Positions 1,768 through 46,640 of a stretch of 63,618 nt of DNA are shown here, in pieces (within the stretch, counting starts at the first letter, position 1; each line of letters starts with the position of its first letter). The DNA lies in IMG/VR virus record IMGVR_UViG_3300045116_000460, positions 1 through 63,618 of that record; one strand, 5' to 3'. The stretch comes from a virus. A program made the translations under genes and the position numbers. The notes below the pieces were generated by a model. That model searched no databases. It was given only the letters and a program-made list of their open reading frames with translations, and had not been told where the DNA came from.

Positions 1768-2838
1768 ATGACTGACAGGACTCCAGTATTGCCCAAAGAA
1801 TATCAGTTTGACAATGCTACTCTTACCAGACGCCTGCTCAAAGATTATGGGAAATGCGAATTTGCAGGTAAAAATGCAAAGGACTTGCTTGAATGCAAGA
1901 ATTGCAGTGGTAACATGAGAGGTTCTTGCAAGTCTTATAAAAGCATTCAACCATTTATTCCAAAAGTAGATCCGCATTATAGTCTTGATACAGAAGTTGC
2001 CGAACCTTTAGCTTTTGCTCTATCTGAAAAAGGAATGGATCATTGTTTGCTTGTAGGGCCAAGTGGGTGTGGTAAATCATCTCTAGTTATGATGCTTGCT
2101 GCGATTACTGACTGGGAAGTTGTGCGCTTTTCTTGTAGCGAGGAAACGAGATTGCATCAATTAATCGGGCAATGGGTTGTTGCGGGAAACAAGATGGTGT
2201 GGGTTGATGGATATGCAACTGATGCTCTCCGAAATGGCAAAATACTTCTTGAAGACGAAGCAGATTTTATGCGTCCTGAACTTCGTGGGGCTCTCCATCC
2301 TATTCTTGAACGTGATGGGACAATTACTCTTCAACAAGTTCATCCTGAAACTGGACACACATTTTTGGAAGTCATCGAACGCCACCGCGATTTCAGATGG
2401 ATTTCGACTGCCAATACAATTGGATTGGGCGATGACTCATTCCAGTATCACGGAACTCAATTCATGAATGCCTCTGCTAGAGACCGGTATGCAATCATCA
2501 TAGAAATGGATTACATGGCACCTGAAGATGAAGCCGAGGTTGTGGTTAAAAAAACCGGTGTTGAGGCCGAAGTAGCGTTTAAAATGGCAAAAGTAGCTCA
2601 TGGTATGCGTGAACTAAAGAAAAATAAGGAAACAGACTATATCTTTGGAATGCGAAGATTGCTTTCGTGGGGCAAATATCATAAGTTCTTTACCTATACA
2701 GATCAGTATTATAAGGCAGTAAAACTTTCTCTTACATCATTTGCTACTCCAAAAGATAAAGAAATCATTATTAAAATGATTCGTGCTCATGCTGACCACC
2801 ACTGGGTCAAAGAGATTGAAAAGATAGAGACTACATAA
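1768..2838 (+). CDS. MoxR/CobS-like AAA+ ATPase
   Basis: This 356-residue protein has a Walker A (GPSGCGKSS, about residues 97-105), a Walker B with ILLEDEAD (about 159-166) and a sensor-1 style STANT motif near 212, the set expected of the MoxR/CobS branch of AAA+ ATPases. Before the ATPase domain is a cysteine cluster (CEF..., CKNC, C) around residues 29-55 that may bind metal. The gene is followed one base later by a CobT-like VWA protein, the classical pairing of this family, in which the ATPase remodels a substrate held by the VWA protein. Phage members are often labelled cobS, but a role in cobalamin synthesis is not implied. The true substrate is unknown. Confidence 0.9.
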   Translation: MTDRTPVLPKEYQFDNATLTRRLLKDYGKCEFAGKNAKDLLECKNCSGNMRGSCKSYKSIQPFIPKVDPHYSLDTEVAEPLAFALSEKGMDHCLLVGPSGCGKSSLVMMLAAITDWEVVRFSCSEETRLHQLIGQWVVAGNKMVWVDGYATDALRNGKILLEDEADFMRPELRGALHPILERDGTITLQQVHPETGHTFLEVIERHRDFRWISTANTIGLGDDSFQYHGTQFMNASARDRYAIIIEMDYMAPEDEAEVVVKKTGVEAEVAFKMAKVAHGMRELKKNKETDYIFGMRRLLSWGKYHKFFTYTDQYYKAVKLSLTSFATPKDKEIIIKMIRAHADHHWVKEIEKIETT

Positions 2839-2839
2839 A

Positions 2840-4648
2840 ATGAATGAACTTCTTGCAAGAAAGAGTGATGCCCTTAAGGTCATCGCCAAATATCTGGGCG
2901 GAAATTATGGGGTTGAACTTTTATACGACCCGATGGGAAGGTGCATGACGAATGGGAAACAAATCATGGTCCCCATGATGTCAGATGAGACATATGAAGA
3001 GTATGAGGATTTTCTTGTTGGAGTCATTTTTCACGAAACAGGGCATATTGTCCACACTGATTTTGAAATCTATAAAAACGAAAAAAATACAATAATTTAC
3101 TCTCTACTAAATTCGTTGGATGATTATCGAGTCGAAAAATTTAGAAAAGAAGATTTTTACAGTGCCGCATATGAGTTAAAGAAGCTTTATGAATTTGCCA
3201 CTGCAAGGAACAAAATAAAAATTGAAGAAGTTGAATACGATAAATCGTTAGATGACGATCCATCAGAAATGTTATGGGCAATAACATCTTGTATGTCTTT
3301 GAAACTGAATAATATTGATTATAGTTTTTACCCTGAACGAATATGTAAAATAGTTGATGGAACGGAAGATATCCTTGAAGAGTATAAAGCCGGAAATGTT
3401 CTAAGAGATGTGACTGATGGGACAAAACGTGCTCATCAATTTGCAATAAAACTCGAATCGAGATTGCGGGAACTTATTCAACTACAAACACCACCAAAAG
3501 CAAAGGATGAGGACAAACAAAAAACCAAAAATCAAGAAGGTAAAAATCTGGGAAATAAAGACAAAAAAGAAAATCAAAATAAACTAGATGAGGGAACAAA
3601 AGATAAAAATAAAGAAGGCCAAAAGATCGAAGTAAGTATTGAAACATTTGGAAAAATGAAACATTGTAAACCAAAAGATATTTATCATGATATTAAAAGA
3701 GAAATAAAAGAACTGGTCATAACAAACATTACCAAAAATCTTGAACATCATATTCCTCATCCTAAAGTTATAGAGCTTGACCAAGAAGAAATCCCTGCAT
3801 GCTTGGATTCTATTACATTTCAAAGAGAATATAATTTAAAAAAGGAAAAAGTTCAAAAAGAAATAGAATCAATGAAATCAAGAATGCTTTCTTTGCTAAT
3901 GGCTCAAAAACGGGTTCATTTCCTTCCAGATTCTGACCATGGTGAAATTGATATTGCTTCTCTTTACTCTATTCGAAATGGAAACAAAAGGATTTTTGAA
4001 AGACATGCAGTTGGAAGACGAATGAATACGGCAGTTGAGATACTTATTGATTGTTCTGGTTCGATGTCATGCGATGAACGATGTGAAGGTGCAATTAAAG
4101 CTGGAATTGCATGTGGAGAAACGCTCCATTCGCTTGCAATTCCATTTGAAATAACTGGTTTTACAACTGGACATAGTGTTGGTTTGATGGTACCGTTGAC
4201 ACATGAAGAACTCATGAGCTACAATCGATTTGAACCATTAAAGCATCTTATTTTTAAAGAATTCAATGAAAATTTTAGTACAGTAAGATATCGGATTATG
4301 AGAATAGGGGCATTTGCGGGCAATGGTGATCCAGAATCAGTATGGTGGGCTGCATGTAGGCTTTCAAAAAGACGTGAACAAAGAAAAATTTTAATCGTTC
4401 TTAGCGATGGACGACCCGCCATGTCATCGTTGTGTGATGTTGGCCTATTAGAAAAAGAATTGAAGAAAGTTGTTAGGAAAATTATCAAAACTGGGATAGA
4501 GATATATGGTATCGGTATTTATACCGATGCACCAAAAAATTTCTATCCTGACTGGAGCGTCATAAATCGAGATGGAAATATTGCAACAGCGGTTTTTGAT
4601 TGCCTTTCAAAGAAATTGATAAATGGAGCTATCATGAATGAAATTTGA
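2840..4648 (+). CDS. CobT-like protein: zincin-like N-domain plus VWA domain
   Basis: This 602-residue partner of the upstream ATPase has an HETGH motif at residues 65-69, followed by LNSLDDYRVEK around 91-100. This HExxH plus N..(E/D)D.R.E arrangement is seen at the N-terminus of CobT-like VWA proteins and may bind zinc. A charged, Lys/Glu/Gln-rich linker (about 215-265) follows. The C-terminal VWA domain carries the MIDAS motif DCSGS (about 402-406) and a later LSDGRP. Known CobS/CobT-like pairs act as ATP-driven chelatase or remodelling complexes. Here, next to sigma-like and helicase genes, the target could be a host or replication complex, but that is inference. Confidence 0.88.
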   Translation: MNELLARKSDALKVIAKYLGGNYGVELLYDPMGRCMTNGKQIMVPMMSDETYEEYEDFLVGVIFHETGHIVHTDFEIYKNEKNTIIYSLLNSLDDYRVEKFRKEDFYSAAYELKKLYEFATARNKIKIEEVEYDKSLDDDPSEMLWAITSCMSLKLNNIDYSFYPERICKIVDGTEDILEEYKAGNVLRDVTDGTKRAHQFAIKLESRLRELIQLQTPPKAKDEDKQKTKNQEGKNLGNKDKKENQNKLDEGTKDKNKEGQKIEVSIETFGKMKHCKPKDIYHDIKREIKELVITNITKNLEHHIPHPKVIELDQEEIPACLDSITFQREYNLKKEKVQKEIESMKSRMLSLLMAQKRVHFLPDSDHGEIDIASLYSIRNGNKRIFERHAVGRRMNTAVEILIDCSGSMSCDERCEGAIKAGIACGETLHSLAIPFEITGFTTGHSVGLMVPLTHEELMSYNRFEPLKHLIFKEFNENFSTVRYRIMRIGAFAGNGDPESVWWAACRLSKRREQRKILIVLSDGRPAMSSLCDVGLLEKELKKVVRKIIKTGIEIYGIGIYTDAPKNFYPDWSVINRDGNIATAVFDCLSKKLINGAIMNEI

Positions 4649-31899: not shown

Positions 31900-32137
31900 A
31901 ACGCCCGAACAAAAGAAACTCAAGGAGATGGCAAGGTCATGGATTTTTGATGACAACTACCATTTTGATAATGAATTTTCTTGCATACGTATTTGTAATA
32001 CTCTTGGTAAAAATATAAAAGCACTAAGATTAAATGTTCTATTTGCAGAACAAAAAGGATGGACGCTTGATGACTTGATGAAATTTAGTTTTACGGGAAA
32101 GGACCCAAAGGTGAAAGAAAATGGCCAAGACAGATAA
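31820..32137 (+). CDS. Small helical phage protein, TTG start
   Basis: TTG at 31820 is chosen because GAGGGA stands six bases before and no ATG is available until residue 37. The 105-residue product is helical, with KEEIKAYL..P.....KK..EMARSWIFDD and a later CIRICNTLGKNIKALRLNVL that resembles a small DNA-binding-like domain of phage proteins. It overlaps the previous gene by 80 bases, more than usual. Function unknown. Confidence 0.55.
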   Translation: MEIITNYQILLIQCLKEEIKAYLTIPKTPEQKKLKEMARSWIFDDNYHFDNEFSCIRICNTLGKNIKALRLNVLFAEQKGWTLDDLMKFSFTGKDPKVKENGQDR

Positions 32138-32456
32138 GGTCAAATTAAGACAAGCAATAAAAAATCAAAAAGAAAGCCGAAACACTAGCATATCATTTGA
32201 TAATAAATATCGACTGATTAGATCAAAAAACGGAAAGATTCGGGATATACTTTTTCTTTTTGGATCTTGGGTGGGGCATCGATTATCTGACATCATGCAA
32301 GATCCACAAGGGCAGAATTATATATTTAATTATATTTTGAATCCAGAAAATAATTTTCCCACCGATTTCAAAAGAGCAGTTTTTGATATCGCAAAAAGTT
32401 TGGAAGCTGAAGACGATCATATTTCTTCAAAAGAAGAAAACGATATTCCTTATTAA
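32121..32456 (+). CDS. DUF3820-like small protein
   Basis: A 111-residue protein whose middle, FLFGSWVGHRLSDIM followed by YIFNYIL and FPTDFKRAV (about 47-90), matches the short FGkykGkxlxdip...YLxWil module of DUF3820 and the C-terminal module of exonuclease X-type proteins, thought to bind nucleic acid. It overlaps the previous gene by 17 bases. Function not proven. Confidence 0.6.
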   Translation: MAKTDKVKLRQAIKNQKESRNTSISFDNKYRLIRSKNGKIRDILFLFGSWVGHRLSDIMQDPQGQNYIFNYILNPENNFPTDFKRAVFDIAKSLEAEDDHISSKEENDIPY

Positions 32457-32480: not shown

Positions 32481-32999
32481 ATGTATTTCTTTACATCAGA
32501 TGAACATTATAATCATAAAAATATAATTAAATATACCAATAGGCCATTCAAAACTATTGAAGAAATGAATGGCACACTTATTGCAAACCATAATGAAGTC
32601 GTCAAAGATGAAGATTTCGTTATTCATGCTGGTGATTTTGCTTTTGGGGATGCTGAGCAAATAATCGATCAACTAAAAGGATATCATATTTTCTTACGAG
32701 GAAGCCACGATAAATGGTTATCAAACATAGCACCCTATATATGGGAAAGAAAAATTCAAGACGAATATGTTGTCGTTTGCCATTATGCCATGAGAGTTTG
32801 GCCTAGATCACATTATAATAGTTGGCAATGTTTTGGACATAGCCATGGTAAATTAGAACCAATTGGAAAACAATGGGATATCGGAGTAGACAATAATAAT
32901 TTTTATCCTATCAGTTTTACGCAATTAAAAAAAATAATGGAAGAAAGACCAAATAATCCCAACCTAGTTTTGAAACTCATTACGGAGAAAGTGAAATGA
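32481..32999 (+). CDS. Calcineurin-like phosphoesterase
   Basis: A 172-residue compact phosphoesterase: SDEHYNHKNII near the start, HAGDFAFGD near 50, RGSHD near 74, CHYAMRVW near 93 and FGHSHG near 111. RGSHD replaces the usual GNHD, keeping His and Asp but losing the Asn metal ligand. Small phage enzymes of this type cleave nucleotides or other phosphate esters. The substrate is unknown. Confidence 0.85.
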   Translation: MYFFTSDEHYNHKNIIKYTNRPFKTIEEMNGTLIANHNEVVKDEDFVIHAGDFAFGDAEQIIDQLKGYHIFLRGSHDKWLSNIAPYIWERKIQDEYVVVCHYAMRVWPRSHYNSWQCFGHSHGKLEPIGKQWDIGVDNNNFYPISFTQLKKIMEERPNNPNLVLKLITEKVK

Positions 33000-33292
33000 G
33001 CGAACTAGGCAAATTCCTAAAGTCCAGGAAGATGTGCGCCACGGATACGGCGCAATTTGCATACTTGAAGCGATTAACCGATGAGCTTGACTGCCTCAAG
33101 AAGACGAGCAGTACGGCGATTTTCCAGCAGGCCGTCTTTGCTTTCTGTCAGGCAGTTTCAGCGTTAGCTAGGATAGAAGCAATGAAGACAGAAAACCGTG
33201 CATGCGTCGCAAAAGGTTATGCGGAGTCGTATGACTCTGAGGCGTTTTTTGAGGTTTCTGCCTTAGTGCTGAAGGGGGTGAAACATGAGTAA
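32996..33292 (+). CDS. Unknown small protein, paralogue of 35960 gene
   Basis: A 98-residue protein. Its middle, FQQAVFAFCQAVSALARIEAM..ENRAC..KGYA..Y..EAFFEV, is clearly related to the 74-residue product of the gene at 35960. It is the first gene with the higher G+C composition that marks 33.0-38.1 kb. It overlaps the phosphoesterase gene (ATGA). Function unknown. Confidence 0.65.
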   Translation: MSELGKFLKSRKMCATDTAQFAYLKRLTDELDCLKKTSSTAIFQQAVFAFCQAVSALARIEAMKTENRACVAKGYAESYDSEAFFEVSALVLKGVKHE

Positions 33293-33530
33293 CGCTTTAC
33301 TTATTTACCTCCAGTATCAGATACATCAAAGCAAAGATGCAACACACGCTAAACACCTTGAAGAGCTACTAAGGTCCGTCGAAAAAGTACTGATGGAATT
33401 GACTGAAGTAAAAGCAGAGAACACTAAATTGCACAGGATATTCCATACTATGCAAGCAGCTTATCAATACGTATACCCAGAACCAAAGGCGTCGAAGCAA
33501 AACAGGAGAGAAAAGAAGGGGAAAAAGTGA
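33285..33530 (+). CDS. Small helical protein
   Basis: An 81-residue, mainly helical protein with a basic C-terminus (SKQNRREKKGKK). AAGGGGG precedes the start and the gene overlaps the previous one by eight bases. The helix LRSVEKVLMELTEVKAENTKL looks like a coiled coil, and LTEVKA recurs in the next gene. Function unknown. Confidence 0.65.
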   Translation: MSNALLIYLQYQIHQSKDATHAKHLEELLRSVEKVLMELTEVKAENTKLHRIFHTMQAAYQYVYPEPKASKQNRREKKGKK

Positions 33531-33531
33531 A

Positions 33532-34173
33532 ATGAGCGATCCAATACTTGCCTATCTGGTGGCGAAGGGATGCCGCAGTTATTGTAGCAGTATACAAAGC
33601 GGTGAGTTCTGTGATTGTGGAAGAGAAGACGCTCTCGCTCTCTATCAATCCATCTCGGTTCGGTTGAGGAAGGCAGAGGAAGAATTGGCCCAGGAACGTC
33701 AAGAAGCGGCTTTATTGCAGAAGGAACTGTCGCGCAAATGTGGATGCTTCTTCAATGCCGAGGGGGATTGTATTAGCCGTTGTGCATACCATAAGCGGAT
33801 TGAGGTCAAAATAAGTTCGAGCATACAACTCCAGGAGGAACTGACTGAGGTGAAGGCTGCGCGTGACAGCTACAAAGCTGACGCTGAATACCTGCGAAAG
33901 TGGCGACAGATCAAAGGACGCAATCCCGGAATTCCATGCGCCTGTGAGTTTGGGCAGGACGGGGAGACACCGATAGTGTGGTGTTCGGTTCATGCTAAGA
34001 TGAGAGATGCGTTGAAGTTCTACGCAGAACAGGTGCCGAAGATGCGTATGTTCTACAATCCACCGACAGCATTCCATCATTCCAGTGATGAGAGTTTTGA
34101 TGCACACATAGAACTGGAAAGGGACAAGGGCAAGCGGGCCAGAGATGCTTTGGCCTTGGAAGGGAGGGATTAA
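33532..34173 (+). CDS. Coiled-coil, cysteine-rich protein
   Basis: A 213-residue protein with Cys/His clusters (CRSYCSS..., CDC near the start; CGCFFNAEGDCISRCAYH near 79-96; CAC and WCSVH near 147-160), separated by helical coiled-coil stretches with many Glu, Arg and Lys. Two or three zinc-binding units on helical arms are plausible. It lies one base after the previous gene in the G+C-rich island. Function unknown. Confidence 0.65.
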   Translation: MSDPILAYLVAKGCRSYCSSIQSGEFCDCGREDALALYQSISVRLRKAEEELAQERQEAALLQKELSRKCGCFFNAEGDCISRCAYHKRIEVKISSSIQLQEELTEVKAARDSYKADAEYLRKWRQIKGRNPGIPCACEFGQDGETPIVWCSVHAKMRDALKFYAEQVPKMRMFYNPPTAFHHSSDESFDAHIELERDKGKRARDALALEGRD

Positions 34174-34177
34174 GACG

Positions 34178-34354
34178 ATGAACACCCCTGAACCTTGTTG
34201 CAGATGCAAATGGCTGTACGTCAATTGTTTATACAAGAACGATCCATCTTATCAAGCCGAATGCACAAAGGGCCACTCACTTGGGCCTTGTGAAAGTTTC
34301 AAGTTGTACGATGGAAAATCCCCCTTTTTGGATACCTGCAAAGGGAGGGAGTAA
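34178..34354 (+). CDS. Small cysteine-rich protein
   Basis: ATG 34178 is chosen because GGGAGGG lies eleven bases upstream; the upstream frame has no signal. The 58-residue protein has CCRCKW, C, CTKG and CESFK, at least six cysteines, suggesting a metal-bound mini-domain. It belongs to the island of small duplicated genes. Confidence 0.6.
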   Translation: MNTPEPCCRCKWLYVNCLYKNDPSYQAECTKGHSLGPCESFKLYDGKSPFLDTCKGRE

Positions 34355-34358
34355 GACA

Positions 34359-34550
34359 ATGCCTAGAATCAAAATTTCGCTTAACGTTAATTTGATTTTG
34401 CTGTGCAGTAAGTGTGGAAATTTACTACCCGGCACGGTAAGCGAAAGCAGATCTGGTGGCCCTCCTTATTGGATATCAGTTGATATGTGCCAAGAATGCT
34501 TAACTATTGCCAAAAAAGAAGGATACGCAGAAGGAGTTTATGATGCCTGA
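34359..34550 (+). CDS. Zinc-ribbon mini-protein, copy A
   Basis: A 63-residue protein starting ATG 34359 behind AGGGAGG. CSKCGNLLPG and CQECLTIAKKEGYAEG form a zinc ribbon with a helix. The next gene at 34543 encodes the same layout (CGTCG, CGECVDAAKDRGYTEG), so the two are tandem paralogues that overlap by eight bases. Function unknown. Confidence 0.65.
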   Translation: MPRIKISLNVNLILLCSKCGNLLPGTVSESRSGGPPYWISVDMCQECLTIAKKEGYAEGVYDA

Positions 34551-34740
34551 AGTCACAGTTGATCTGGACGTTTATTGCGGGACGTGTGGCACACCACTAT
34601 GCCATCAAACAAACAGCGCCAAGATCAGAGGACGATGCAGTATTTATGTCGCTGTTTGTGGGGAATGCGTGGATGCGGCGAAAGACAGAGGGTACACAGA
34701 AGGATACAATAAGGGTTGCCTAGACAGTCAGGAGGCATGA
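34543..34740 (+). CDS. Zinc-ribbon mini-protein, copy B
   Basis: A 65-residue protein; ATG 34543 is preferred because AAGGAG lies six bases upstream. CGTCGTPLC and CGECVDAAKDRGYTEGYNKG are homologous to the previous small protein, which shows tandem duplication and divergence. Function unknown. Confidence 0.65.
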   Translation: MPEVTVDLDVYCGTCGTPLCHQTNSAKIRGRCSIYVAVCGECVDAAKDRGYTEGYNKGCLDSQEA

Positions 34741-34743
34741 GCC

Positions 34744-35223
34744 ATGATTGACTATTCCAAACCGATCTTATGTCTGGACTTCGACGGTGTCATTCATAGT
34801 TACACAAGCGGTTGGAAGGGGGCCAGAAACATTCCAGACATGCCCGTCGCAGGAGCCCTGGAATTTCTGTGCAAAGCAACAGACGAGTTTGACGTTCACA
34901 TCTTTTCAAGCAGGTCCCGGTACTTTGGCGGAAGGAGGGCAATGAAGAGGTGGTTGAGAGATAGGTACACTGAACTAGCTTTTGGGCCAACAGAAATACC
35001 CGCTTGGTTATTGTCTTATATCGGAAGAACAGCATTCGCTGATCCTTGGGATTATGAAGTTGGGTGGGCAGTGAAGAAACTGATTAGCAAGATCAAATTT
35101 CCACTCGAAAAACCCGCCGCACTGGTTACGATAGATGATAGGGCCATTTGTTTCGATGGAACATTCCCATCGTTTAACACAATCAAGGCTTTCAGGCCAT
35201 GGAACAGGAGAAGCCAGCCATGA
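34744..35223 (+). CDS. HAD-family hydrolase
   Basis: A 159-residue HAD-fold protein: DFDGVIHSY near 11-19 (motif I nucleophile Asp and DxD-type Asp), SSRSRYFGG near 55 (motif II), KPAALVTIDDRAI near 128-140 (motif III/IV acidic pair). Phage HAD proteins are usually small phosphatases, some acting on nucleotides. It ends with the ATGA overlap to the next gene. Confidence 0.8.
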   Translation: MIDYSKPILCLDFDGVIHSYTSGWKGARNIPDMPVAGALEFLCKATDEFDVHIFSSRSRYFGGRRAMKRWLRDRYTELAFGPTEIPAWLLSYIGRTAFADPWDYEVGWAVKKLISKIKFPLEKPAALVTIDDRAICFDGTFPSFNTIKAFRPWNRRSQP

Positions 35224-35621
35224 CTAACTATTCAAAACTCACTGATGCGGAATTGAACGAAAAGGCGGCTAGTCTTTGCGGGTGGAAAGACGATCCAGCA
35301 TGCGAGGGCAAGCCCTTTGAGTTTATGTTAGGTCCAGATGGAAAGCCTGGATTTAGACCTGACTACTGCAAGCTGGAGAACCTTGGGTTGTGTGTGAGAG
35401 ACTTTCTACCTGTGCTTAAAGAGAAAATATGGCACAGGGGCAAAGACGCCTTCGACGTTGTGTTGCATGTCGGACATGATTGGCACAGAATTACTGTTAC
35501 CGATGCAAAATGTAACACATCATATGGGGATTTCAGTAAAAACCTAGCACGAATATCTACTGAGTTATTCTGCAAGGCGATGGAGGGCGATGATGACCGA
35601 CTATTCCAAACTTACCGATGA
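35220..35621 (+). CDS. Tandem-duplicated phage protein, copy 1
   Basis: ATG 35220 overlaps the HAD stop and has AGGAGA nine bases upstream, so it is chosen over 35199. The 133 residues begin MTNYSKLTDAELNEKAA and include PDYCKLENLG.CVRDFLPVL and a C-terminal ARISTELFCKAMEG. The next gene repeats the same architecture, so this pair arose by tandem duplication. The start YSKLTD.ELN is like DUF2591/NinX-type phage proteins, a weak clue. Function unknown. Confidence 0.7.
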   Translation: MTNYSKLTDAELNEKAASLCGWKDDPACEGKPFEFMLGPDGKPGFRPDYCKLENLGLCVRDFLPVLKEKIWHRGKDAFDVVLHVGHDWHRITVTDAKCNTSYGDFSKNLARISTELFCKAMEGDDDRLFQTYR

Positions 35622-35958
35622 TCAGTTGAACACGCTCGCTGCGAAGCATTGTGGGTGGACTGACATCGAATTTGAACAAGAATTTATAGAGGGATGGTTC
35701 GGGATACCTCCTAATGCGTCTGAGTCGAGACTCATTCCAGACTATTGCAAACTGGAAAGGCTCGGAAGGTGTATAAGGGACTTTCTCCCTGTCTTGGAAA
35801 AGAAAAAATGGTGCAAAGTGTTGTTTGATATTGGACACGACAATTATTGCAGGGTCATTATCGTCCACGTAAAGGACGAGATAGTACACGGTGACCTCAA
35901 TGATAACCTTGCACGAACCTTCACGGAGCTATTTTGCAAGGCAATGGAGGAGGAATAA
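35593..35958 (+). CDS. Tandem-duplicated phage protein, copy 2
   Basis: A 121-residue paralogue of the gene before (MTDYSKLTDDQLN..A..HCGW, PDYCKLERLG.CIRDFLPVLEKKKW, ARTFTELFCKAMEEE). ATG 35593 is favoured over 35590 by spacing from GGAGGG. It overlaps copy 1 by 29 bases. The two are partly diverged, so the duplication is not recent. Confidence 0.7.
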   Translation: MTDYSKLTDDQLNTLAAKHCGWTDIEFEQEFIEGWFGIPPNASESRLIPDYCKLERLGRCIRDFLPVLEKKKWCKVLFDIGHDNYCRVIIVHVKDEIVHGDLNDNLARTFTELFCKAMEEE

Positions 35959-35959
35959 T

Positions 35960-36184
35960 ATGGAAGACAAAAGTGTGCGTGCTTTTCAACAGGCCGTGCT
36001 TGTGTTCAGCCAAGCCATTGCAGCACTGGCTGAAATGGAGGCCATGGAAGCTGAAAACAATGCTTGCCGGGACAAGGGTTGCGCGGGCGCGTACGGTGCC
36101 GCTGCCTTCTTTGCGGTTCCTGAGAGATTCGGGCTTGACCGGAACAGTGTACTGAAAACATTGAGGTCAATGGAGAGGGAATAA
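35960..36184 (+). CDS. Small paralogue of the 32996 gene
   Basis: A 74-residue protein (AGGAGGAATAAT upstream of ATG 35960). FQQAVLVFSQAIAALAEMEAM..ENNAC..KGCAGAYGAAAFFAV aligns with the middle of the product of 32996-33292, so it is a shortened copy, lacking the N-terminal 30 residues. Function unknown. Confidence 0.7.
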   Translation: MEDKSVRAFQQAVLVFSQAIAALAEMEAMEAENNACRDKGCAGAYGAAAFFAVPERFGLDRNSVLKTLRSMERE

Positions 36185-36185
36185 A

Positions 36186-36491
36186 GTGCCTAAGTTCCGG
36201 ATGACCAAAGCGGAGGCCCAACTGATAGTAGACGCAATAGTGGTATGGGAAAACGGACAGAATGAGGAAGGAATAGAAGCTGGTTGTATTGACGCATGTC
36301 CTCTATGCAGCAAGTATTTTTATAGTATGTGCGCCGAATGCCCAGTTGCTAGGTACACAGGAGAACTTAATTGTAATGGAACCCCTCATCCATTTCAGTT
36401 CGGGAGGGACGAGGACATCCGCATGATACAGATAATTGCTTTTGGTCTCAAGATGCTTGACGATGCTGGATATGAGATTGTGGAGGAATAA
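36186..36491 (+). CDS. Cysteine-containing small protein, GTG start
   Basis: GTG 36186 with GAGAGGGA before it gives 101 residues. A Cys cluster CPLCSKYFYSMCAECPVARYTG (in parts CPLC, CAECP) lies near residues 38-58; a helical C-terminus follows. It resembles no family known to me. It is directly upstream of the duplicated zinc finger gene. Confidence 0.65.
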   Translation: MPKFRMTKAEAQLIVDAIVVWENGQNEEGIEAGCIDACPLCSKYFYSMCAECPVARYTGELNCNGTPHPFQFGRDEDIRMIQIIAFGLKMLDDAGYEIVEE

Positions 36492-36492
36492 C

Positions 36493-36927
36493 ATGCCGAT
36501 TTATATGGACTTCAGAATGCCCTGTAGTTGTCCTTGCTATTACCTCCAGCGTGCCAAGGTTCCGCATAAGTGTCCCGTCTGTGACGGAACCGGACTCGTG
36601 AGTAAGCCACCTGGCATTGCAGGGGATCAACCTACTTGGTCGCGTAACGATGCGAGTCCGTATCCCTGCAAAGCCTGTGACGGCACTGGAATATTGAGGA
36701 ATAACATGTCGATTTGTATTGACTTTAGAGTCCATCGTGATTGCCCTCTATATCATTATACATATAGGAAGGATGCCAAAACTCCCCACAAGTGCCCAGT
36801 ATGTGATGGAACTGGTCTTGTCAGCAAGCCACCTGGCATTGCAGGAGATCAGCCTACTTGGTCGAGTAACGATGCGAGTCCGTATCCCTGCAAAGCCTGT
36901 GACGGCACTGGAATATTGTGGGGCTAA
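36493..36927 (+). CDS. Fused double zinc-finger protein
   Basis: A 144-residue protein starting ATG 36493 behind GGAGGAATAAC. It is a head-to-tail repeat of one 71-residue unit: each has a short Cys-containing start, then CPVCDGTGLVSKPPG and CKACDGTGIL, like the DnaJ zinc repeat CxxCxGxG. The second unit starts at Met72 (ATG 36706), still preceded by GAGGAATAAC, the same leader as the first. So a whole gene with its ribosome binding site was duplicated and the first stop was lost. Function unknown; possibly nucleic acid or chaperone-type binding. Confidence 0.75.
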   Translation: MPIYMDFRMPCSCPCYYLQRAKVPHKCPVCDGTGLVSKPPGIAGDQPTWSRNDASPYPCKACDGTGILRNNMSICIDFRVHRDCPLYHYTYRKDAKTPHKCPVCDGTGLVSKPPGIAGDQPTWSSNDASPYPCKACDGTGILWG

Positions 36928-36928
36928 C

Positions 36929-37903
36929 GTGACCCCGTGGTTTCAGGAAGGCTGCATCACGATCTACAACGCAGATGTCATGGACGCCCTGCGCGGCATC
37001 GAGAGCGAATCCATCCAGTGTGTAGTGACTAGCCCGCCCTACTGGGGCCTACGTGATTACGGCGTTGATGGGCAGATCGGTCTAGAGGCGACGCCAGATA
37101 AGTATGTCACAACGATGGTTACCGTTTTTCACGAGGTATGGAGGGTGCTCAAGGATGACGGGACGCTCTGGCTCAACATGGGGGACTGCTACGCAACGAG
37201 GGTTGGTAAGGGTGGTATGCATAACAAAAACAACGCCGGAAAACAGGCATATCGGATAATCGACGGAGGATTCATCCAACCGAACAGGTTGCCCATTCCC
37301 GGTTTCAAGCCGAAAGACCTTGTGGGTATGCCTTGGCGCATGGCCTTCGCCCTGCAAGCCGATGGGTGGTATCTGCGATCCGACATCATTTGGGCAAAGC
37401 CGAATCCCATGCCCGAGAGTGTTAAAGACCGGCCGACCAAGGCGCACGAGTATCTGTTCCTGCTGACGAAGCAGGAGAGGTATTTCTACGACCAGGAGGC
37501 CATCATGGAACCCGGTGTCGCCCGTAATCATCATGATGCAACAGGACTAGGCTATTGCGCTCCTGGGCAGACGCCACAGCGCGGGAATCGAATGGCAAAG
37601 AAGGAGCAATGTTCCGGGATGAGGAATGTCCGCTCCGTTTGGACAATCGCACCGCAAGCGTTTTCAGGGGCACATTTTGCCACCTTTCCAGAGGCCCTTG
37701 TGGTGCCATGCGTGAAGGCCGGCAGCCGAGAGGGGGACACGGTGCTCGACCCGTTTGCCGGATCAGGAACAGTCGGCCTTGTGGCCATGAAATTGGGCAG
37801 GAAGGCCATCCTGATAGATCTAAATGAAGCGTATTGCAAGCTCATGATAGAACGTATCGGCCAGCCCAATTTGCTGTGCACCACGGAGAAAAACAAGCCG
37901 TGA
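36929..37903 (+). CDS. Beta-class DNA methyltransferase
   Basis: A 324-residue SAM-dependent DNA methyltransferase. TSPPYWGLRDYG (residues 34-45) is motif IV of amino-methylating enzymes, and DPFAGSGTVGLVAMKLGRKAI near 275-295 (in parts) is motif I; the order IV then I is beta class. It methylates adenine N6 or cytosine N4; the SPPY motif does not settle which. GTG 36929 follows TGGGGCTAAC, which matches the leader seen before the two zinc fingers, so I take it. Composition is G+C-rich, unlike the phage backbone, which suggests transfer. It may protect phage DNA from host enzymes. Confidence 0.88.
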   Translation: MTPWFQEGCITIYNADVMDALRGIESESIQCVVTSPPYWGLRDYGVDGQIGLEATPDKYVTTMVTVFHEVWRVLKDDGTLWLNMGDCYATRVGKGGMHNKNNAGKQAYRIIDGGFIQPNRLPIPGFKPKDLVGMPWRMAFALQADGWYLRSDIIWAKPNPMPESVKDRPTKAHEYLFLLTKQERYFYDQEAIMEPGVARNHHDATGLGYCAPGQTPQRGNRMAKKEQCSGMRNVRSVWTIAPQAFSGAHFATFPEALVVPCVKAGSREGDTVLDPFAGSGTVGLVAMKLGRKAILIDLNEAYCKLMIERIGQPNLLCTTEKNKP

Positions 37904-38097
37904 AAAGAGAAGAAGCAAGACAATTGTACCTACCTGGGAGGCGTATGATCAGATACGGCGATGAAGATAATCTCATCCCATCCTGGCTCATCGTCCGACA
38001 TTTCCGCAACAAACAAACGGGCAATCCCGCCAGAAATGCGAAGAAGAAAGGAGGGAAATTCAAAAATAGTATAGCTAGAAAATTAAATAACAAATAA
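37900..38097 (+). CDS. Small basic protein
   Basis: GTG 37900 overlaps the methyltransferase stop (GTGA), with GGAGA upstream, giving 65 residues. The chain is strongly basic (NAKKKGGKFKNSIARKLNNK at the end), so it may bind nucleic acid. It is the last gene of the G+C-rich island and its own 3' end already looks A/T-rich. Function unknown. Confidence 0.6.
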   Translation: MKREEARQLYLPGRRMIRYGDEDNLIPSWLIVRHFRNKQTGNPARNAKKKGGKFKNSIARKLNNK

Positions 38098-38108
38098 AGG
38101 AGGGCATA

Positions 38109-38480
38109 ATGAAAAAGATTATCATGATTGTGATTGCATTGTTTATGTTTGTTCCTCTTCTTGTAGCTCAAGAAGCATTGGTCTGGAATCCCAAGGGCCT
38201 TACTTGGGACCACAACACCGAAACAGATCTTGCTGGCTATTTTATTTATGAATCATCGACCCCTGGTGACCCTGAACATGGGACGTATTTTATTTCAATA
38301 CCAGCCGGCACAAATGTTTTTGAATTTCCAACAAATCAAAATTATGCAGAAGGAATTTTTTACTGGGTTACTACTGCATATGACGTAGCAGGAAATGAGA
38401 GTGGATTTTCTAATCAAGTGACAGCCGGATTTGATCATGTACCGCCTGCTCCACCTGTTGGTTGCAAGGCATACAAGTAA
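38109..38480 (+). CDS. Exported fibronectin type III-like protein
   Basis: A 123-residue protein with a signal peptide (KK, then a hydrophobic run to about residue 20, LVAQEA as cleavage region). The rest is one beta-sandwich domain: WDHNTETDLAGYFIY and AYDVAGNESGFSN are typical of fibronectin type III repeats. It would leave the cytoplasm, perhaps staying in the host envelope or on its surface. A role in superinfection exclusion or adhesion is possible, not shown. AGGAGGG stands before the start. Confidence 0.75.
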   Translation: MKKIIMIVIALFMFVPLLVAQEALVWNPKGLTWDHNTETDLAGYFIYESSTPGDPEHGTYFISIPAGTNVFEFPTNQNYAEGIFYWVTTAYDVAGNESGFSNQVTAGFDHVPPAPPVGCKAYK

Positions 38481-39541: not shown

Positions 39542-39551
39542 TGATTATTAA
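39291..39551 (+). CDS. Zinc-ribbon frame, possible shifted extension
   Basis: In the +1 frame relative to 39251, an 86-residue reading ends with KKCPSCESCLYQNKIGDLKGW then CPICGNFW, a convincing zinc ribbon. Its start ATG 39291 has only a weak signal (GAAGG). It may be the second half of the previous gene reached by slippage on A7 at 39437-39443, or a separate overlapping gene. Confidence 0.5.
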   Translation: MKKQKEPMQKTELSTTPKRVKNSSWSIALEGDIKPLNNSTKLQSISIQAKKCPSCESCLYQNKIGDLKGWACPICGNFWIFYNNDY

Positions 39552-39676
39552 AGATATATCAAGGTAAAATCAGAACTTAACCAGTTATGTGAAATAATAG
39601 ATAAGAATGCCCCTCTAGCTCACAAAAAGTAGGGAAAAATCGTAGTTTTCAATCAAGGCAACCTTCGCCCCCCCAG

Positions 39677-39712
39677 AAAAAACCCCTTAAAATCGATTTT
39701 TAAGGGGTTTTT
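39677..39712. terminator. Bidirectional terminator between the two arms
   Basis: AAAAACCCCTTAAAA and its inverted copy TTTTAAGGGGTTTTT, around a short loop, form a stem with T runs on both sides. It lies where the rightward genes (ending 39551) and leftward genes (ending 39739) converge, so it can stop RNA polymerase from both sides. The rest of 39552-39738 holds no gene that I can see. Confidence 0.85.
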
Positions 39713-39738
39713 CTTAAAAATGCTTATAAATCAATAAC

Positions 39739-39924
39739 TTAATCAGGTACGGCGGCCTTTTTAATGAAATATGTACTTCCTGGCGGCACTGCATTTTTAA
39801 GCGCCTCAATGTCAGCATAAGTTGGGTCATCAACCTGCCATGCCTTTATAATCTGGATCGCGGCAGGTACACCATATTTAGCCAGGAGTTCAATAATCAT
39901 TTGAGCAAATGCTAATTCTTGCAT
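39739..39924 (-). CDS. Very small protein, last gene of the leftward arm
   Basis: A 61-residue, mildly helical and hydrophobic protein (FAQMIIELLAKYGVPAAIQIIKAW). AAGGAGAAT precedes the start. It resembles small proteins found next to lysis or tail genes, but no clear membrane span or catalytic residue is seen. Function unknown. Confidence 0.6.
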   Translation of the reverse strand: MQELAFAQMIIELLAKYGVPAAIQIIKAWQVDDPTYADIEALKNAVPPGSTYFIKKAAVPD

Positions 39925-40907: not shown

Positions 40908-42191
40908 TTATAGCAAATTAACCAATTCCTTTAAATTTTTATCATCTGGAAATGCATCAAGATACTGTCTCGGACTACCCTTACTGGATGATCTCCATTG
41001 AAGATTTGAATTAAATAAGTCCAAAATTTTGGTAACAGATCCTTGTTCTAGTATTTTTCCATACTCACCTAATGATTCCATATAGATATTGTAACCTTTA
41101 CTTCTATCTTTATCTTGATCCATTTCCCATTTATGATTTTGCTTTTCACTAAGACTATCAAAAATTTTATTCCATGCTCTGACCATGTTGCCAGAATCAT
41201 ATAACTTTGTTACATGATCTTTGATTAGATTTACAATGCTTTCTCGTTTATGTCTATCTCGATATAGAAGCTTGATATTGTGAATATATTCTTCTTCATC
41301 ATGACAAATAAATTTTACAAGACTTTGAAAAAGAATATATTCCTCTGCTGGATTTTTCATAACAATGGGGATGATTCCTGCTGCAATCGCTTCACCAAGG
41401 ACCTGTTCACAAGTACCAAAATGGTCAGGATTTAGTGGATAACCAAATACATCAATTATTGCCAAATACGGTCTGACATCATCAATTACACCAGTAAACA
41501 CAAACTTAGATTCAAGCCCTCTCTCTTTTACTTGTTGTTTGATTTTTTGTAAATCACACCCTCCACCACACATGATAAATTTTACATCAGGAATATCTAT
41601 TTTACTGCAAAAATCGATGAAATTCGGGTGCAGCTTTGAATAATCAAGAGTACCAACAAACCCAATGTTAAACCCTTCATGAGGAATGGGTTTTACATCT
41701 AGATACTTGTCTATATTTCCGGTCGTCCATATGTGCCCAAGTTTGTTGTTATCTTTCAAATTTCTTATATTATCTGCTTTATAGCTTATAGGAGAAGAAA
41801 AAATCAATCGATCACAAAAATCAATCAATTTCTTTGGAAATACATATGGAGCACGAAGTCCTGATACATGTGACCATATGCACATTCTACATTTTGGCAA
41901 ATCAGGATAAAGCAAATATTCAAATAAATAAGGATGATTCCAATAATGAACTACAACAATATCTGATTCATCCATACCTTTAAAAAGTTCTTCTTTATTA
42001 TTTCTAAGATTTTCTTTTACCAATTCTTTATCATAAGAACTGTAATAATTATTATTCAAACAAAAAATTTTATGCTTGTTAATTTTATCGGTGTCAATCC
42101 AATTCATAAGAACTGACCCAATTCCACCACCTAAATGCACGGTCACATGAGCTACTTTATAAATCAATAAACTCTCTCTTGAATCCGTCAT
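40908..42191 (-). CDS. GT4-type glycosyltransferase
   Basis: A 427-residue GT-B fold enzyme. HLGGGIGSVLMNW near the start marks the acceptor side; FNIGFVGTLDYSKLHPN (in parts NIGFVGTLDY), FTGVIDDVRPYLAIIDVFGYPL and LGEAIAAGIIPIV near 245-270 are the GT4 donor-site hallmarks. It transfers a sugar from a nucleotide donor. It overlaps the upstream methyltransferase gene by 35 bases, so the two are coupled. Confidence 0.85.
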   Translation of the reverse strand: MTDSRESLLIYKVAHVTVHLGGGIGSVLMNWIDTDKINKHKIFCLNNNYYSSYDKELVKENLRNNKEELFKGMDESDIVVVHYWNHPYLFEYLLYPDLPKCRMCIWSHVSGLRAPYVFPKKLIDFCDRLIFSSPISYKADNIRNLKDNNKLGHIWTTGNIDKYLDVKPIPHEGFNIGFVGTLDYSKLHPNFIDFCSKIDIPDVKFIMCGGGCDLQKIKQQVKERGLESKFVFTGVIDDVRPYLAIIDVFGYPLNPDHFGTCEQVLGEAIAAGIIPIVMKNPAEEYILFQSLVKFICHDEEEYIHNIKLLYRDRHKRESIVNLIKDHVTKLYDSGNMVRAWNKIFDSLSEKQNHKWEMDQDKDRSKGYNIYMESLGEYGKILEQGSVTKILDLFNSNLQWRSSSKGSPRQYLDAFPDDKNLKELVNLL

Positions 42192-43365
42192 TTCTCAATG
42201 AAATTTTTATTTTATCAGAATGAGCAACAGCAGTTATCATAATAGGGTCATTAGATGTTTTTAGTGCATTTCTACTATTTATTTTTTTACCTTTAATTTT
42301 CATATATTTTTGTTTATAAGGAGTATCATCAAACAACGATATGATAGCACAATTTTTAAGATTAGTATTTTCATACAGATAAAGAAATTCTCTTGAAATA
42401 CCAAATACATCAAACTGGAGTTCAGATAATGCCAATGAGTTGATGATTTTTTTCTTCTTTTCTAATTCTAACTTACTATGATTAATATAATCGTGCATTT
42501 TATATCTAAGATTAAAACTTTTAGTAAGTAAACTATTATATTTCCCATTGCGTTTGAATAATATTGTAAGATTTGGGAGTAGGGTTTTTTCACTTGTCAT
42601 ATTTGAATATGTAGTGATCGCATCTACAACGGAAAAACCATTATTAACAGCAATCAATGTAAGATGTTCCATATCGAAATGCTGTATATGTTCCCTCATT
42701 AAAAACCAGTAAAAATCAAAAAAGAACGTATTGGCATATAGCATGGCATCCGGGACACTAATACATAATAAACCATCAGGAGCCAATATTCTTTTAGCCT
42801 CTTTAAAAAATATATTCGGATCAAATAAATGTTCAAGAACCTGATCTGCAAATACGATATTGAAGGTTTCATTATCAAATGAAGTCTTTTCAGCTAAACC
42901 AAAAGAAATATTTTTAGATCCTAACTTGAGCGCAATGTCTACATAATGTTTTGAGCAGTCAATTCCATAAAGATTGTTGTATCCACGTTGATTCAAAAAT
43001 CTCAAAAAACCTCCAGTTGCGCATCCAATATCTAAAATTTTATCATTAATTGATATATATCGATTTATAAAATCAAATAGTGAAGAATACCTTGCTAAGG
43101 AATTCATATTTGAACTACCCGGCAAATCGCCAGTATGATTTGGTGATTCAATATTGTTGATTGAATATTCACCATCGTAGTAACTCAGAATATTCTGGTA
43201 ATCATTATAGCTTAAAGCATTCATCACATGTCCGCAATTGCAGCACATCACAATGGTAGCCGGATCATAAAGGAGTGATTCATCGAAATTACCACATCTC
43301 AATCTGATCAAAGGTTCAAAAGAAACATCTAAACAAATTGGGCATTTCAGGTCTTGATTTTCCAT
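42157..43365 (-). CDS. Zinc-ribbon class I methyltransferase
   Basis: A 402-residue protein. CPIC near residues 8-11 and MCCNCGHVMN near 40-49 form a zinc ribbon, then KILDIGCATGGFLRFL near 110-125 (SAM site), NIVFADQVLEHL and LLCISVPD. The N-terminal ribbon plus methyltransferase plus C-terminal domain is the layout of sugar C-methyltransferases. It overlaps the radical SAM gene by 19 bases. Confidence 0.82.
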   Translation of the reverse strand: MENQDLKCPICLDVSFEPLIRLRCGNFDESLLYDPATIVMCCNCGHVMNALSYNDYQNILSYYDGEYSINNIESPNHTGDLPGSSNMNSLARYSSLFDFINRYISINDKILDIGCATGGFLRFLNQRGYNNLYGIDCSKHYVDIALKLGSKNISFGLAEKTSFDNETFNIVFADQVLEHLFDPNIFFKEAKRILAPDGLLCISVPDAMLYANTFFFDFYWFLMREHIQHFDMEHLTLIAVNNGFSVVDAITTYSNMTSEKTLLPNLTILFKRNGKYNSLLTKSFNLRYKMHDYINHSKLELEKKKKIINSLALSELQFDVFGISREFLYLYENTNLKNCAIISLFDDTPYKQKYMKIKGKKINSRNALKTSNDPIMITAVAHSDKIKISLRNDGFKREFIDL

Positions 43366-44318
43366 AAAAGATCCTCGGCTATATGATCTATATTTATTGG
43401 TTCACCAGCCTTGAGTTGATCACAATTTTTACAAATATCAATATTTTGCCTGTCCTTCATTAGCATTTGTACACGAAGATTTTGTATTGGGTGATCGTTC
43501 CATATCTTGTTTAATGGTTTTTGGAAGATATTTCCAACAACAATTTTTCTATTCCAATCCAAAAAACAAGCACTAACTTCACCATCAAATTGAACACAAA
43601 ATGAATAAAAGATATATGGACAAACTTCAACATAAGTAATTGGATCACCATATACTCCAACTTCTTCATTTTTTTTGATACCTTCCATTGTCGTATCGTA
43701 CCAACAATTCATTACATGTTCTATAGCGCATCCATCGCTTATAGGCATAAATATTTCTACGAATCGCCATTGTTCTTCTTCAGAAATCAGATCTCCATTA
43801 ATTTTAACAAAGACAATGCAATTTCCTCGATTGTGATATAGGTCTGCAATATTATCAACATATCTTCCGAAGTCAACTCTTCCTCCAGCAAATTGATGAT
43901 ATTGTTCAGATGTTACTCCAATTACAGAAATATTGATACGATCCAATCCAGCCCTTATTAACTCACGATTCAATTTTGTAGTCAATAGACTACCATTCGT
44001 AGTCGTATCAATATCACATGCTACGCCCCTATCTTTTGCTAAGCTAATCATATCTACAAAACTTGGGTTTAGCAGTGGTTCTCCAAAAGCATATAGTCTT
44101 AGCGTTTTTAATTGCGATGGAAATTGCAATATTTGCGAGATTGTTTTATTATAAACTGACCATGGCATTATTCCCTGTTTTTCCATTTTGTGTTCATGAT
44201 GAAAGCAATATTTGCATCTGAAATTGCACGAAGAGGCAGGATCTACATTTATAACAAATGGAGTATCCAATGGCAACACTTTTTCTAACGGTTCCCTATT
44301 ATCTCTTGTTCTTTTCAT
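43347..44318 (-). CDS. Radical SAM/SPASM protein
   Basis: A 323-residue radical SAM enzyme: C31xxxC35xxC38 in SSCNFRCKYC binds the 4Fe-4S cluster that cleaves SAM. A C-terminal SPASM-type region holds CPYIFYSFC, ACFLDW, and CKNC with extra cysteines. SPASM enzymes modify peptides, sugars or alcohols. In this cassette a sugar or protein-bound target is likely. It overlaps the previous gene by four bases. Confidence 0.85.
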   Translation of the reverse strand: MKRTRDNREPLEKVLPLDTPFVINVDPASSCNFRCKYCFHHEHKMEKQGIMPWSVYNKTISQILQFPSQLKTLRLYAFGEPLLNPSFVDMISLAKDRGVACDIDTTTNGSLLTTKLNRELIRAGLDRINISVIGVTSEQYHQFAGGRVDFGRYVDNIADLYHNRGNCIVFVKINGDLISEEEQWRFVEIFMPISDGCAIEHVMNCWYDTTMEGIKKNEEVGVYGDPITYVEVCPYIFYSFCVQFDGEVSACFLDWNRKIVVGNIFQKPLNKIWNDHPIQNLRVQMLMKDRQNIDICKNCDQLKAGEPINIDHIAEDLLWKIKT

Positions 44319-44962
44319 ATGATTTCCGGTAATTTCCAGTGCGACTTAATGAATTTACTTTCGTCTGTAAATCTTCCAGGCTGTAAGTAATTTGAAAATA
44401 CAAAACTGTTAGGCAAATAAGCGATTCTCCCATTATTGCCATAAAGCAATTCAACAGCGAATTCTCCATCACAAACAGATTTATCAACTTTAAACCTTGT
44501 CTTTTTAAATACTGAACCTTTGATTATAAATTGGCCGAGTCCTATAGTGCCAATTCTAACATCATTTTTAGATTTCACATAAAAAACTCCAGGCAAGTGT
44601 GGAGTCGATCCATCACTAGGGATTGAATCGCCCCTATAAGACGAAAAAAATATAACATCTGCTGTTTGATTCCTAATAATATCAAAGAATCCAGGTTCAA
44701 AAACCGTTTCGTCACAAACAAATGCATAATAATCATTGTCATAAATTGATTGGTTATCTGCAAAATCATTGAATTTTCTAAAGCATTGTTCGCCTGTATT
44801 TAATTCTTTTACCCTAATGTTATGAACCCAAGAAACACCAAAATCAATATCTTCTTTTGGCGCCACAATAGGATAGTATTCAATTTTTTCAGGTTCAAAA
44901 TATTTAACTAAAGTTTTTGCCAAATTTACGCGATAAAATGGGCAAAGAATATGCAGGATCAT
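44315..44962 (-). CDS. GT-A-like glycosyltransferase
   Basis: A 215-residue protein starting ILHILCPFYRVN. YDNDYYAFVCDETVFEPGFFD (in parts DYYAFVCDE, near 79-87) gives the acidic nucleotide-sugar site at the position of a DxD motif, and the C-terminus has an acceptor-loop-like segment. It lacks the usual N-terminal GT2 signature, so I call it GT-A-like only. It is encoded in a series with other sugar genes. Confidence 0.6.
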   Translation of the reverse strand: MILHILCPFYRVNLAKTLVKYFEPEKIEYYPIVAPKEDIDFGVSWVHNIRVKELNTGEQCFRKFNDFADNQSIYDNDYYAFVCDETVFEPGFFDIIRNQTADVIFFSSYRGDSIPSDGSTPHLPGVFYVKSKNDVRIGTIGLGQFIIKGSVFKKTRFKVDKSVCDGEFAVELLYGNNGRIAYLPNSFVFSNYLQPGRFTDESKFIKSHWKLPEII

Positions 44963-44974
44963 TTATTGATATCC

Positions 44975-45703
44975 CTATCGTCTATTGTAAATATTTTTAT
45001 GATAAACATATGTAGTCGGTATCATAAAATGAGTCAATCCAATTTTATCTCTTACAGAATAACACCATTCAGAATCAACACCATAATGACTAGTTTGAAT
45101 ACCAAGAGGTATCGCCTCAACCAATGATCTCCAAGTCAAACAACAACCAAACGTATTATAGCAACATTCAACAGGTTCTTTTGGTAGTTTACTACTGCCA
45201 AAAGGTTCGTGCAAAAAATCATGATATGATTCTCTCCAATTCTCTATTTTCTTACCGGCCCAGTAAACAGTTTTATTCTCTTTACTATGGTACATCATAG
45301 GAGTAACTGAAGCAGTAGTATTGCATCTTTCTTTCAACTCCTTAACAAGAATCGTTAACCAATCATTGCACTCAACTGGAATTTCAATATCATCATTCAT
45401 CCAGCAAATGAATTGGCCAGTCGATTCAGGAAAAACCTTAACCACATTCCTAACTTGCGCTCTTTCTTTATGCAAAAAGAGTTTGATCTTTCCGTCATCG
45501 GCCATTTTTTTAAGATATGATTCAAGTTCTGGTACTCCACTTGCATCATCGGTAACAATGATTTCATAATCTGGATATATGGTATAGGATATAATAGATT
45601 CCAAACATGCTTTAATATAAACTAGCTGTTTGTATGTTGGTATGATTATACTTACCCTACCCATCACTCCAGAATCAAGATCCGGTTTCTTCTCCATGCT
45701 CAT
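44975..45703 (-). CDS. Family 2 glycosyltransferase
   Basis: A 242-residue GT2 enzyme: VSIIIPTYKQLVYIKACLESI begins the fold, given in parts VSIIIPTYK and YIKACLESI, then IIVTDDAS, ICWMNDDIEIP (the DxD-like metal site) near 93-103, and an acceptor region with GCCLTWR. It transfers a sugar from a nucleotide donor. AAGGAATAG precedes the start. It overlaps the upstream gene by 29 bases. Confidence 0.88.
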   Translation of the reverse strand: MSMEKKPDLDSGVMGRVSIIIPTYKQLVYIKACLESIISYTIYPDYEIIVTDDASGVPELESYLKKMADDGKIKLFLHKERAQVRNVVKVFPESTGQFICWMNDDIEIPVECNDWLTILVKELKERCNTTASVTPMMYHSKENKTVYWAGKKIENWRESYHDFLHEPFGSSKLPKEPVECCYNTFGCCLTWRSLVEAIPLGIQTSHYGVDSEWCYSVRDKIGLTHFMIPTTYVYHKNIYNRR

Positions 45704-46640
45704 CTATTCCTTTCCTGCTATTATAGCTCTTACCATATTTTGATTCTTTCCGCAGGATTACCTTGATTCCGGTATCCTCTTCAATTTTTGATCTCATAGA
45801 ATCTACATAAGATGCCGATTTGTTACCAAAAAGATTGAGCATGATTTCTTTACATCCGAGGCTTGCCAATTCTTTATATAAATCTATGTTTACATTTTGA
45901 ATATTATCATTAAAGCCAAATGTGAAATTCTTTTCATGCATTAATTTTGCTAGCGTGACTGCTCTTTGTTTATCAAAACAAAATGCCTCATCACCAAAGA
46001 AAAATGATTTAACACCATAGGCATGGTTAATTGCCTCTGTTTCATTCATAATTCTTGATGTTGTAAAAACTTTGTGGCCAGCACACATCCAAGTTGGTCT
46101 GTAAGGACTACCTCTGCTCCCCAAAATCATAATAGCTTTCCGTCCATCAAGTTTTCGATAATATCCGTTCACATCCACAAGATGCCTGCTTGGTAGAGGG
46201 AGACGATTAATGTCTTTTACATCAACCTTGTATACTTTGCCCATTTCACTACGAGAATTAATATAATCGTTCATGAATGTTTTAATGGCTGTTTCTGGTT
46301 CACCACGTATCACCACGTTAAACCCATCGTCATTTATGAACTTAATAATATTTTTAGATGGACCACTACCACAGGCAACCATAGTGGCTGATGGATTAAT
46401 TGCCTTACACTGCGATACTATTTTCTTTGTAAGGCCATATTTATCATTGTCTATGTATATAACATAGACTACGCAATGGCCAAAGCACCATTGGCTTTTA
46501 TCTAGCCCATTTAAATCGTTAATTCTAACCTTGAATCCTTGTTCTTCCAGAACAGGAGCAAGTTGAAGTAAAAATAAAGGAGGGTCAAGTCTTCGATGAT
46601 AAACATTAGCAAAAGGCATATTTATTAATTCTATTCTCAT
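45675..46640 (-). CDS. B12/radical-SAM-like protein lacking cluster cysteines
   Basis: A 321-residue protein with a B12-binding-like N-terminal half (PPLFLLQLAPVLEEQGF, then VACGSGPSK and VVIRGEPETA near 88-117) and the radical SAM half starting SRGSPYRPTWMCAGHKVFT (175-193). In active relatives this stretch reads SRGCPYxCxFC; here the first two cluster cysteines are replaced by Ser178 and Pro182, leaving only Cys186. EDEAFCF-like FFGDEAFCF follows as usual. So it cannot bind a normal cluster; it may serve as a scaffold or use a different chemistry. GGAGAG stands upstream of ATG. Confidence 0.75.
   Translation of the reverse strand: MRIELINMPFANVYHRRLDPPLFLLQLAPVLEEQGFKVRINDLNGLDKSQWCFGHCVVYVIYIDNDKYGLTKKIVSQCKAINPSATMVACGSGPSKNIIKFINDDGFNVVIRGEPETAIKTFMNDYINSRSEMGKVYKVDVKDINRLPLPSRHLVDVNGYYRKLDGRKAIMILGSRGSPYRPTWMCAGHKVFTTSRIMNETEAINHAYGVKSFFFGDEAFCFDKQRAVTLAKLMHEKNFTFGFNDNIQNVNIDLYKELASLGCKEIMLNLFGNKSASYVDSMRSKIEEDTGIKVILRKESKYGKSYNSRKGIDEHGEETGS

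Follow-up and report, generated by a model that had tools for sequence, protein, structure and literature searches.

The window analysed here, IMG/VR record IMGVR_UViG_3300045116_000460 (63,618 bases from a metagenome assembly, itself probably a fragment), contains an island of 14 mostly small plus-strand genes, about 5 kb in length, which we regard with good confidence as a horizontally acquired accessory block in a variable site. All 14 genes are absent between conserved flanks in a syntenic relative, and the composition and codon usage of the block are foreign to the backbone, which upholds the proposal of an earlier note on this DNA that a cassette had been gained here. Gain is the best reading, its direction being inferred from a single relative. 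The island is of an ordinary kind for phages, with an unusually clear boundary; it offers a clean case, in an uncultivated phage, of an accessory site that is filled by a gene block of foreign composition and stands empty in a syntenic relative, and it leaves the understanding of phage accessory regions unchanged.

A two-breakpoint maximum-likelihood fit of G+C over 28-43 kb placed the borders of the island at 33,020 and 38,040, with a G+C of 0.490 within it and 0.328 in the flanks, in agreement with the step that the earlier note had put at about 33.0 and 38.0 kb. The non-island 5-kb windows have a mean G+C of 0.355 (sd 0.017, maximum 0.397). GC3 is 0.523 in the island compared with 0.266 in the backbone, and a backbone codon model was rejected by 13 of the 14 island genes (z from -3.4 to -16.9), while the backbone genes under the same model gave a mean z of -0.15 (sd 1.3); i5 at 34359 (z -0.3) alone among the island genes resembles the backbone in codon usage. 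Given the step in GC3 and this rejection at the level of synonymous codons, amino-acid content does not account for the shift in G+C. The surroundings are A/T-rich as had been claimed: values ordinary for the backbone were obtained for the early genes on the left, namely the SbcC-like and RuvC-like genes with the small ones that follow, and for the three genes directly to the right, and the G+C drops inside i14. Somewhat further to the right, at 39550-39750, there is a convergent switch from plus-strand to minus-strand genes, where the GC skew flips.

The genes of the island run head to tail (Table 1), each overlapping the next or separated from it by a few bases, and in many cases the Shine-Dalgarno sequence falls inside the last codons of the preceding gene; this tight co-directional packing suggests that they are co-translated. 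Promoter-like sites are no commoner than in shuffles. At the left border, the stop codon of the metallophosphoesterase gene overlaps the start codon of i1 (ATGA), and the 20-mer around this junction recurs with one mismatch at 33520-33539, at the start of i3, with no other copy that similar in the window. From the two copies, the left junction is possibly a recombination joint at a short shared start context. The description of the genes as cysteine-rich stands on average, with 4.5% cysteine in the island vs 1.8% in the backbone, the excess being carried by i1, i3-i6, i8, i9, i11 and i12, but not for all of them: the proteins encoded at 33285, 34744, 35960, 36929 and 37900 are not cysteine-rich, and genes with CxxC motifs have a similar share in the island (5/14) and in the backbone (20/69).

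Table 1. Genes of the island, its flanks and its left junction.
Feature	Coordinates	Strand	Length	Remarks
Left flank	32121..32456	+		Conserved gene bordering the empty site of G001, 51% identity
Metallophosphoesterase	32481..32999	+		Left neighbour of the island; phrog_547, 1.6e-39; GC3 0.24, as backbone; absent from G001
Left junction	32984..33003	+	20 nt	Ribosome-binding site and start, GGAGAAAGTGAAATGAGCGA; spans metallophosphoesterase end and i1 start
i1	32996..33292	+	98 aa	Paralogue of i10; no significant family match
i2	33285..33530	+	81 aa	No significant family match
i3	33532..34173	+	213 aa	Cysteine clusters; no significant family match
i4	34178..34354	+	58 aa	7 Cys; no significant family match
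i5	34359..34550	+	63 aa	CxxC ... CxxC, zinc-ribbon-like (by eye); paralogue of i6
i6	34543..34740	+	65 aa	Zinc-ribbon-like (by eye); paralogue of i5
i7	34744..35223	+	159 aa	HAD-like phosphatase, DFDGV ... IDDRA (by eye)
i8	35220..35621	+	133 aa	Paralogue of i9
i9	35593..35958	+	121 aa	Paralogue of i8; N-terminus weakly matches phrog_444
i10	35960..36184	+	74 aa	Paralogue of i1
i11	36186..36491	+	101 aa	Cys-rich; GTG start; no significant family match
i12	36493..36927	+	144 aa	DnaJ-type CxxCxGTG zinc domain, two tandem copies
i13	36929..37903	+	324 aa	Predicted beta-class N6/N4 DNA methyltransferase, orphan
i14	37900..38097	+	65 aa	Basic; GTG start
Right flank	38109..38480	+		Secreted, fibronectin-III-like (by eye); kept at the empty site of G001, 54% identity

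A DnaE alignment search of IMG/VR found one close relative, G001 (IMGVR_UViG_3300017991_005544, 66,698 bases, DnaE 65%), and a distant one, G002 (DnaE 40%). G001 is the only close relative found: an SbcC alignment yielded no further one in IMG/VR, in a search by two short patterns that may miss relatives, and only 31% partial matches among GTDB genomes, the single-sequence scans with RuvC and the RecA-like protein and an i8/i9 alignment yielded none in IMG/VR, and the region 30.5-40.5 kb had no match at the DNA level among 50,697 phage records. G001 is largely collinear with window positions 451-55,202 (about 55 kb, 25-73% protein identity), and its G+C is 0.519 vs about 0.35 for the window backbone. 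With such a strong compositional split between collinear phages, related phages evidently span a wide G+C range. In G001 only 0.57 kb, occupied by two unrelated small genes, separates the homologues of the two flanking genes. No match to any of the 14 island proteins was obtained in the 66.7 kb of this record, which is probably a fragment and to which the absence applies. The metallophosphoesterase is likewise without a match in G001. Since the flanks are conserved but the genes between them differ, the site is variable and behaves as an accessory hotspot, and the block departs from the backbone in G+C and codon usage but not in G+C-normalised dinucleotides.

Elsewhere along the collinear stretch, adjoining genes for an AAA+ ATPase (MoxR/CobS-like by eye) and a VWA-domain protein (CobT-like by eye) at 1768-4648 have 64% and 45% identity in G001, and genes that by eye resemble those for glycosyltransferases, methyltransferases and radical-SAM proteins form a minus-strand cluster beside the tail genes, at 40908-46640, whose products are among the best-conserved between the two phages (47-72% identity). 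Near its empty site G001 has small genes of its own, including one for an HNH nuclease-like protein (by eye; L154:17666-18145).

The site resembles the accessory hotspots of P2-like phages and P4-like satellites (PMC9122126), in which small, mostly unknown co-directional genes also lie between conserved genes and the content is wholly different between syntenic relatives. This block differs from them in its strongly distinct G+C and in having no gene recognisable as a recombinase, integrase or homing nuclease. A repeat search of the window found no terminal repeats bracketing the island, no target-site duplication was seen at it, and no island protein matched a mobility family; the block thus shows neither a mobility gene nor terminal repeats such as would mark a transposon, homing element or satellite.

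The island is composite rather than uniform, as is favoured by a breakpoint inside it near 36,780, with a G+C of 0.47 to the left (small-gene array) and 0.55 to the right (methyltransferase end) and a log-likelihood gain of 11.2 vs a maximum of 9.3 in 500 block shuffles. The G+C-higher methyltransferase end that had been pointed out earlier is therefore real, whereas the idea of one cassette has to be modified. In codon usage the island is intermediate between the backbone and G001, with 8/14 genes fitting G001 better and 6/14 the backbone; the methyltransferase gene leans strongly to G001 (+111 log units). A tentative alternative is that the site is a hotspot where the small genes and the methyltransferase came singly from different G+C-richer sources and never formed one cassette. 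In favour of such stepwise accretion are the internal breakpoint, the backbone-like codon usage of i5, the different small genes that G001 bears at the site and nearby, and the fact that two good island homologues occur together in none of the fetched relatives. However, the similar shift in codon usage of 13 genes, the sharp outer edges and the packed, overlapping junctions argue for one imported block over most of the island.

That all four duplications named in the earlier note are real was confirmed: there are three paralogous pairs, i1/i10 (58% over 36 aa, E 1e-12), i5/i6 (34% over 59 aa, E 4e-8) and i8/i9 (54% identity), and an internal tandem duplication in i12, where a stretch of 148 nt is repeated at 88%. 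An all-against-all gene comparison found other strong paralogues in the window only among three tail genes. By the NG86 method, dS has reached saturation in two pairs (i8/i9 and i1/i10); it amounts to about 1.1 between i5 and i6 and to 0.70 between the halves of i12, where a dN of 0.13 indicates purifying selection. As the paralogues are mostly old, most of the duplications did not follow a recent arrival, and for the most part the paralogues were probably imported already duplicated. A recent gain, as had been suggested, is only partly supported, by the lack of amelioration in composition.

On the reading that we prefer, horizontal acquisition of an accessory block, one or more donors with a G+C near 0.5 or higher would have contributed to a site near the distal end of the early plus-strand operon of the phage. 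The array of small genes would probably have arrived with most of its paralogues in place, and the methyltransferase end might have been acquired separately. The G+C-normalised dinucleotide signature of the island (delta* 0.061) is inside the range of the backbone windows (0.050, sd 0.019) and nearer the backbone than G001 (delta* 0.101), so the donor need not be distant; it may have been a phage or a host that is alike in signature and richer in G+C. The same signature, together with the reliance on a single relative, would also agree with an ancestral island that was deleted from G001 and differs in composition through expression or selection. We consider this unlikely, because selection could hardly produce a near doubling of GC3 that is limited to 14 genes and begins and ends in steps, and the early genes on either side are at backbone values. 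An assembly chimera, with a piece of another genome joined into the phage contig, might be suspected from the sharp borders in a metagenomic record but is very improbable, given that the left joint is a gene overlap within a start context recurring in the island and that, with both flanks in one collinear backbone, it would take two false joins at a single accessory site.

The protein i13 matches PF01555 at 175.5 bits (cut-off 26.7), phrog_67 at 3.5e-79 and the PADLOC Type II methyltransferase at 6.7e-106. It has TSPPYW in its N-terminal part and DPFAGSGT in its C-terminal part, so that motif IV precedes the SAM-binding motif I as in the beta class; family and motifs together clearly predict an intact beta-class DNA methyltransferase. 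TSPPY is commoner among N4-cytosine enzymes. As the solved relatives of i13 comprise N4-cytosine as well as N6-adenine enzymes, its target base is left as either of the two. Its closest relatives are about 50% identical, the best of them reside in G+C-rich phages, and the methyltransferase gene has a G+C of 0.52-0.70 in the 12 relatives measured. No island protein matched a nuclease family in Pfam or PHROG (ten proteins were also searched against other libraries), which leaves i13 without a partner endonuclease; a restriction-modification system was rejected for this reason. In its TSPPY and DPFAGSGT motifs in beta order and the lack of a partner nuclease in the island, i13 is like phage orphan beta-class methyltransferases, and it is about 52-53% identical, over more than 90% of the protein, to those of Bordetella phage vB_BbrM_PHB04 and Salicola phage CGphi29 (PF01555, phrog_67). 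Unlike them, it closes an array of small genes in an A+T-rich phage.

According to the review literature, orphan methyltransferases of mobile elements have antirestriction activity (PMC12707154). Most likely, i13 would methylate the phage DNA without a partner nuclease and thereby shield it from host restriction, and marking phage DNA against host restriction enzymes is probably the sole recognisable job of the island. The counter-defence role that had been proposed for the whole cassette is thus plausible for the methyltransferase only: no other island protein has a convincing defence match, and most match nothing. Known anti-defence genes other than the methyltransferase were not recognised in the island with the libraries used, which are not built for anti-defence families. 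That the methyltransferase acts jointly with the HAD-like phosphatase and the small Cys-rich proteins, as one transferable multi-gene counter-defence module of a type yet to be described, is unlikely. The HAD-like phosphatase, the small Cys-rich proteins and the zinc-ribbon-like ones would presumably be active in the host early in infection, and about ten unannotated small protein families are offered here for screening against host defences.

Besides i7, i12 and i13, no island protein had a significant match in the family-profile searches. A 'phage ABA sandwich' assignment of i8/i9 was considered but dropped, with no Pfam match and a phrog_444 match of only E 0.04. Structure predictions were too poor to use (mean pLDDT 51 for i8/i9 and 34 for i12), and the fold search gave no hit at E 0.001. 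The protein i12, earlier called a fused zinc finger, indeed consists of two tandem DnaJ-type zinc domains; it matches PF00684 at 34.1 bits (cut-off 32.7), and relatives are present in IMG/VR. Its CxxCxGTG repeats are common to the central zinc domain of DnaJ and to anti-TRAP-like small zinc proteins. It differs from DnaJ, a chaperone with a J domain and four CxxCxGxG motifs, in being a stand-alone protein of two tandem copies of the central domain, with no J-domain match. As the second copy retains an RBS-like GAGG, together with an ATG in frame at 36706, i12 seems to have arisen by fusion of two complete gene copies; this second copy might also be produced alone. The protein i7 matches phrog_23773 at 2.4e-18 and, below the cut-off, HAD_SAK_2 (E 0.01), and it has relatives of up to 49% identity in other phages. 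It is unrelated to i8/i9, and the first 19 nt of the three genes (34744-34762, 35220-35238 and 35593-35611) are 84-89% identical, as if gene starts were exchanged.
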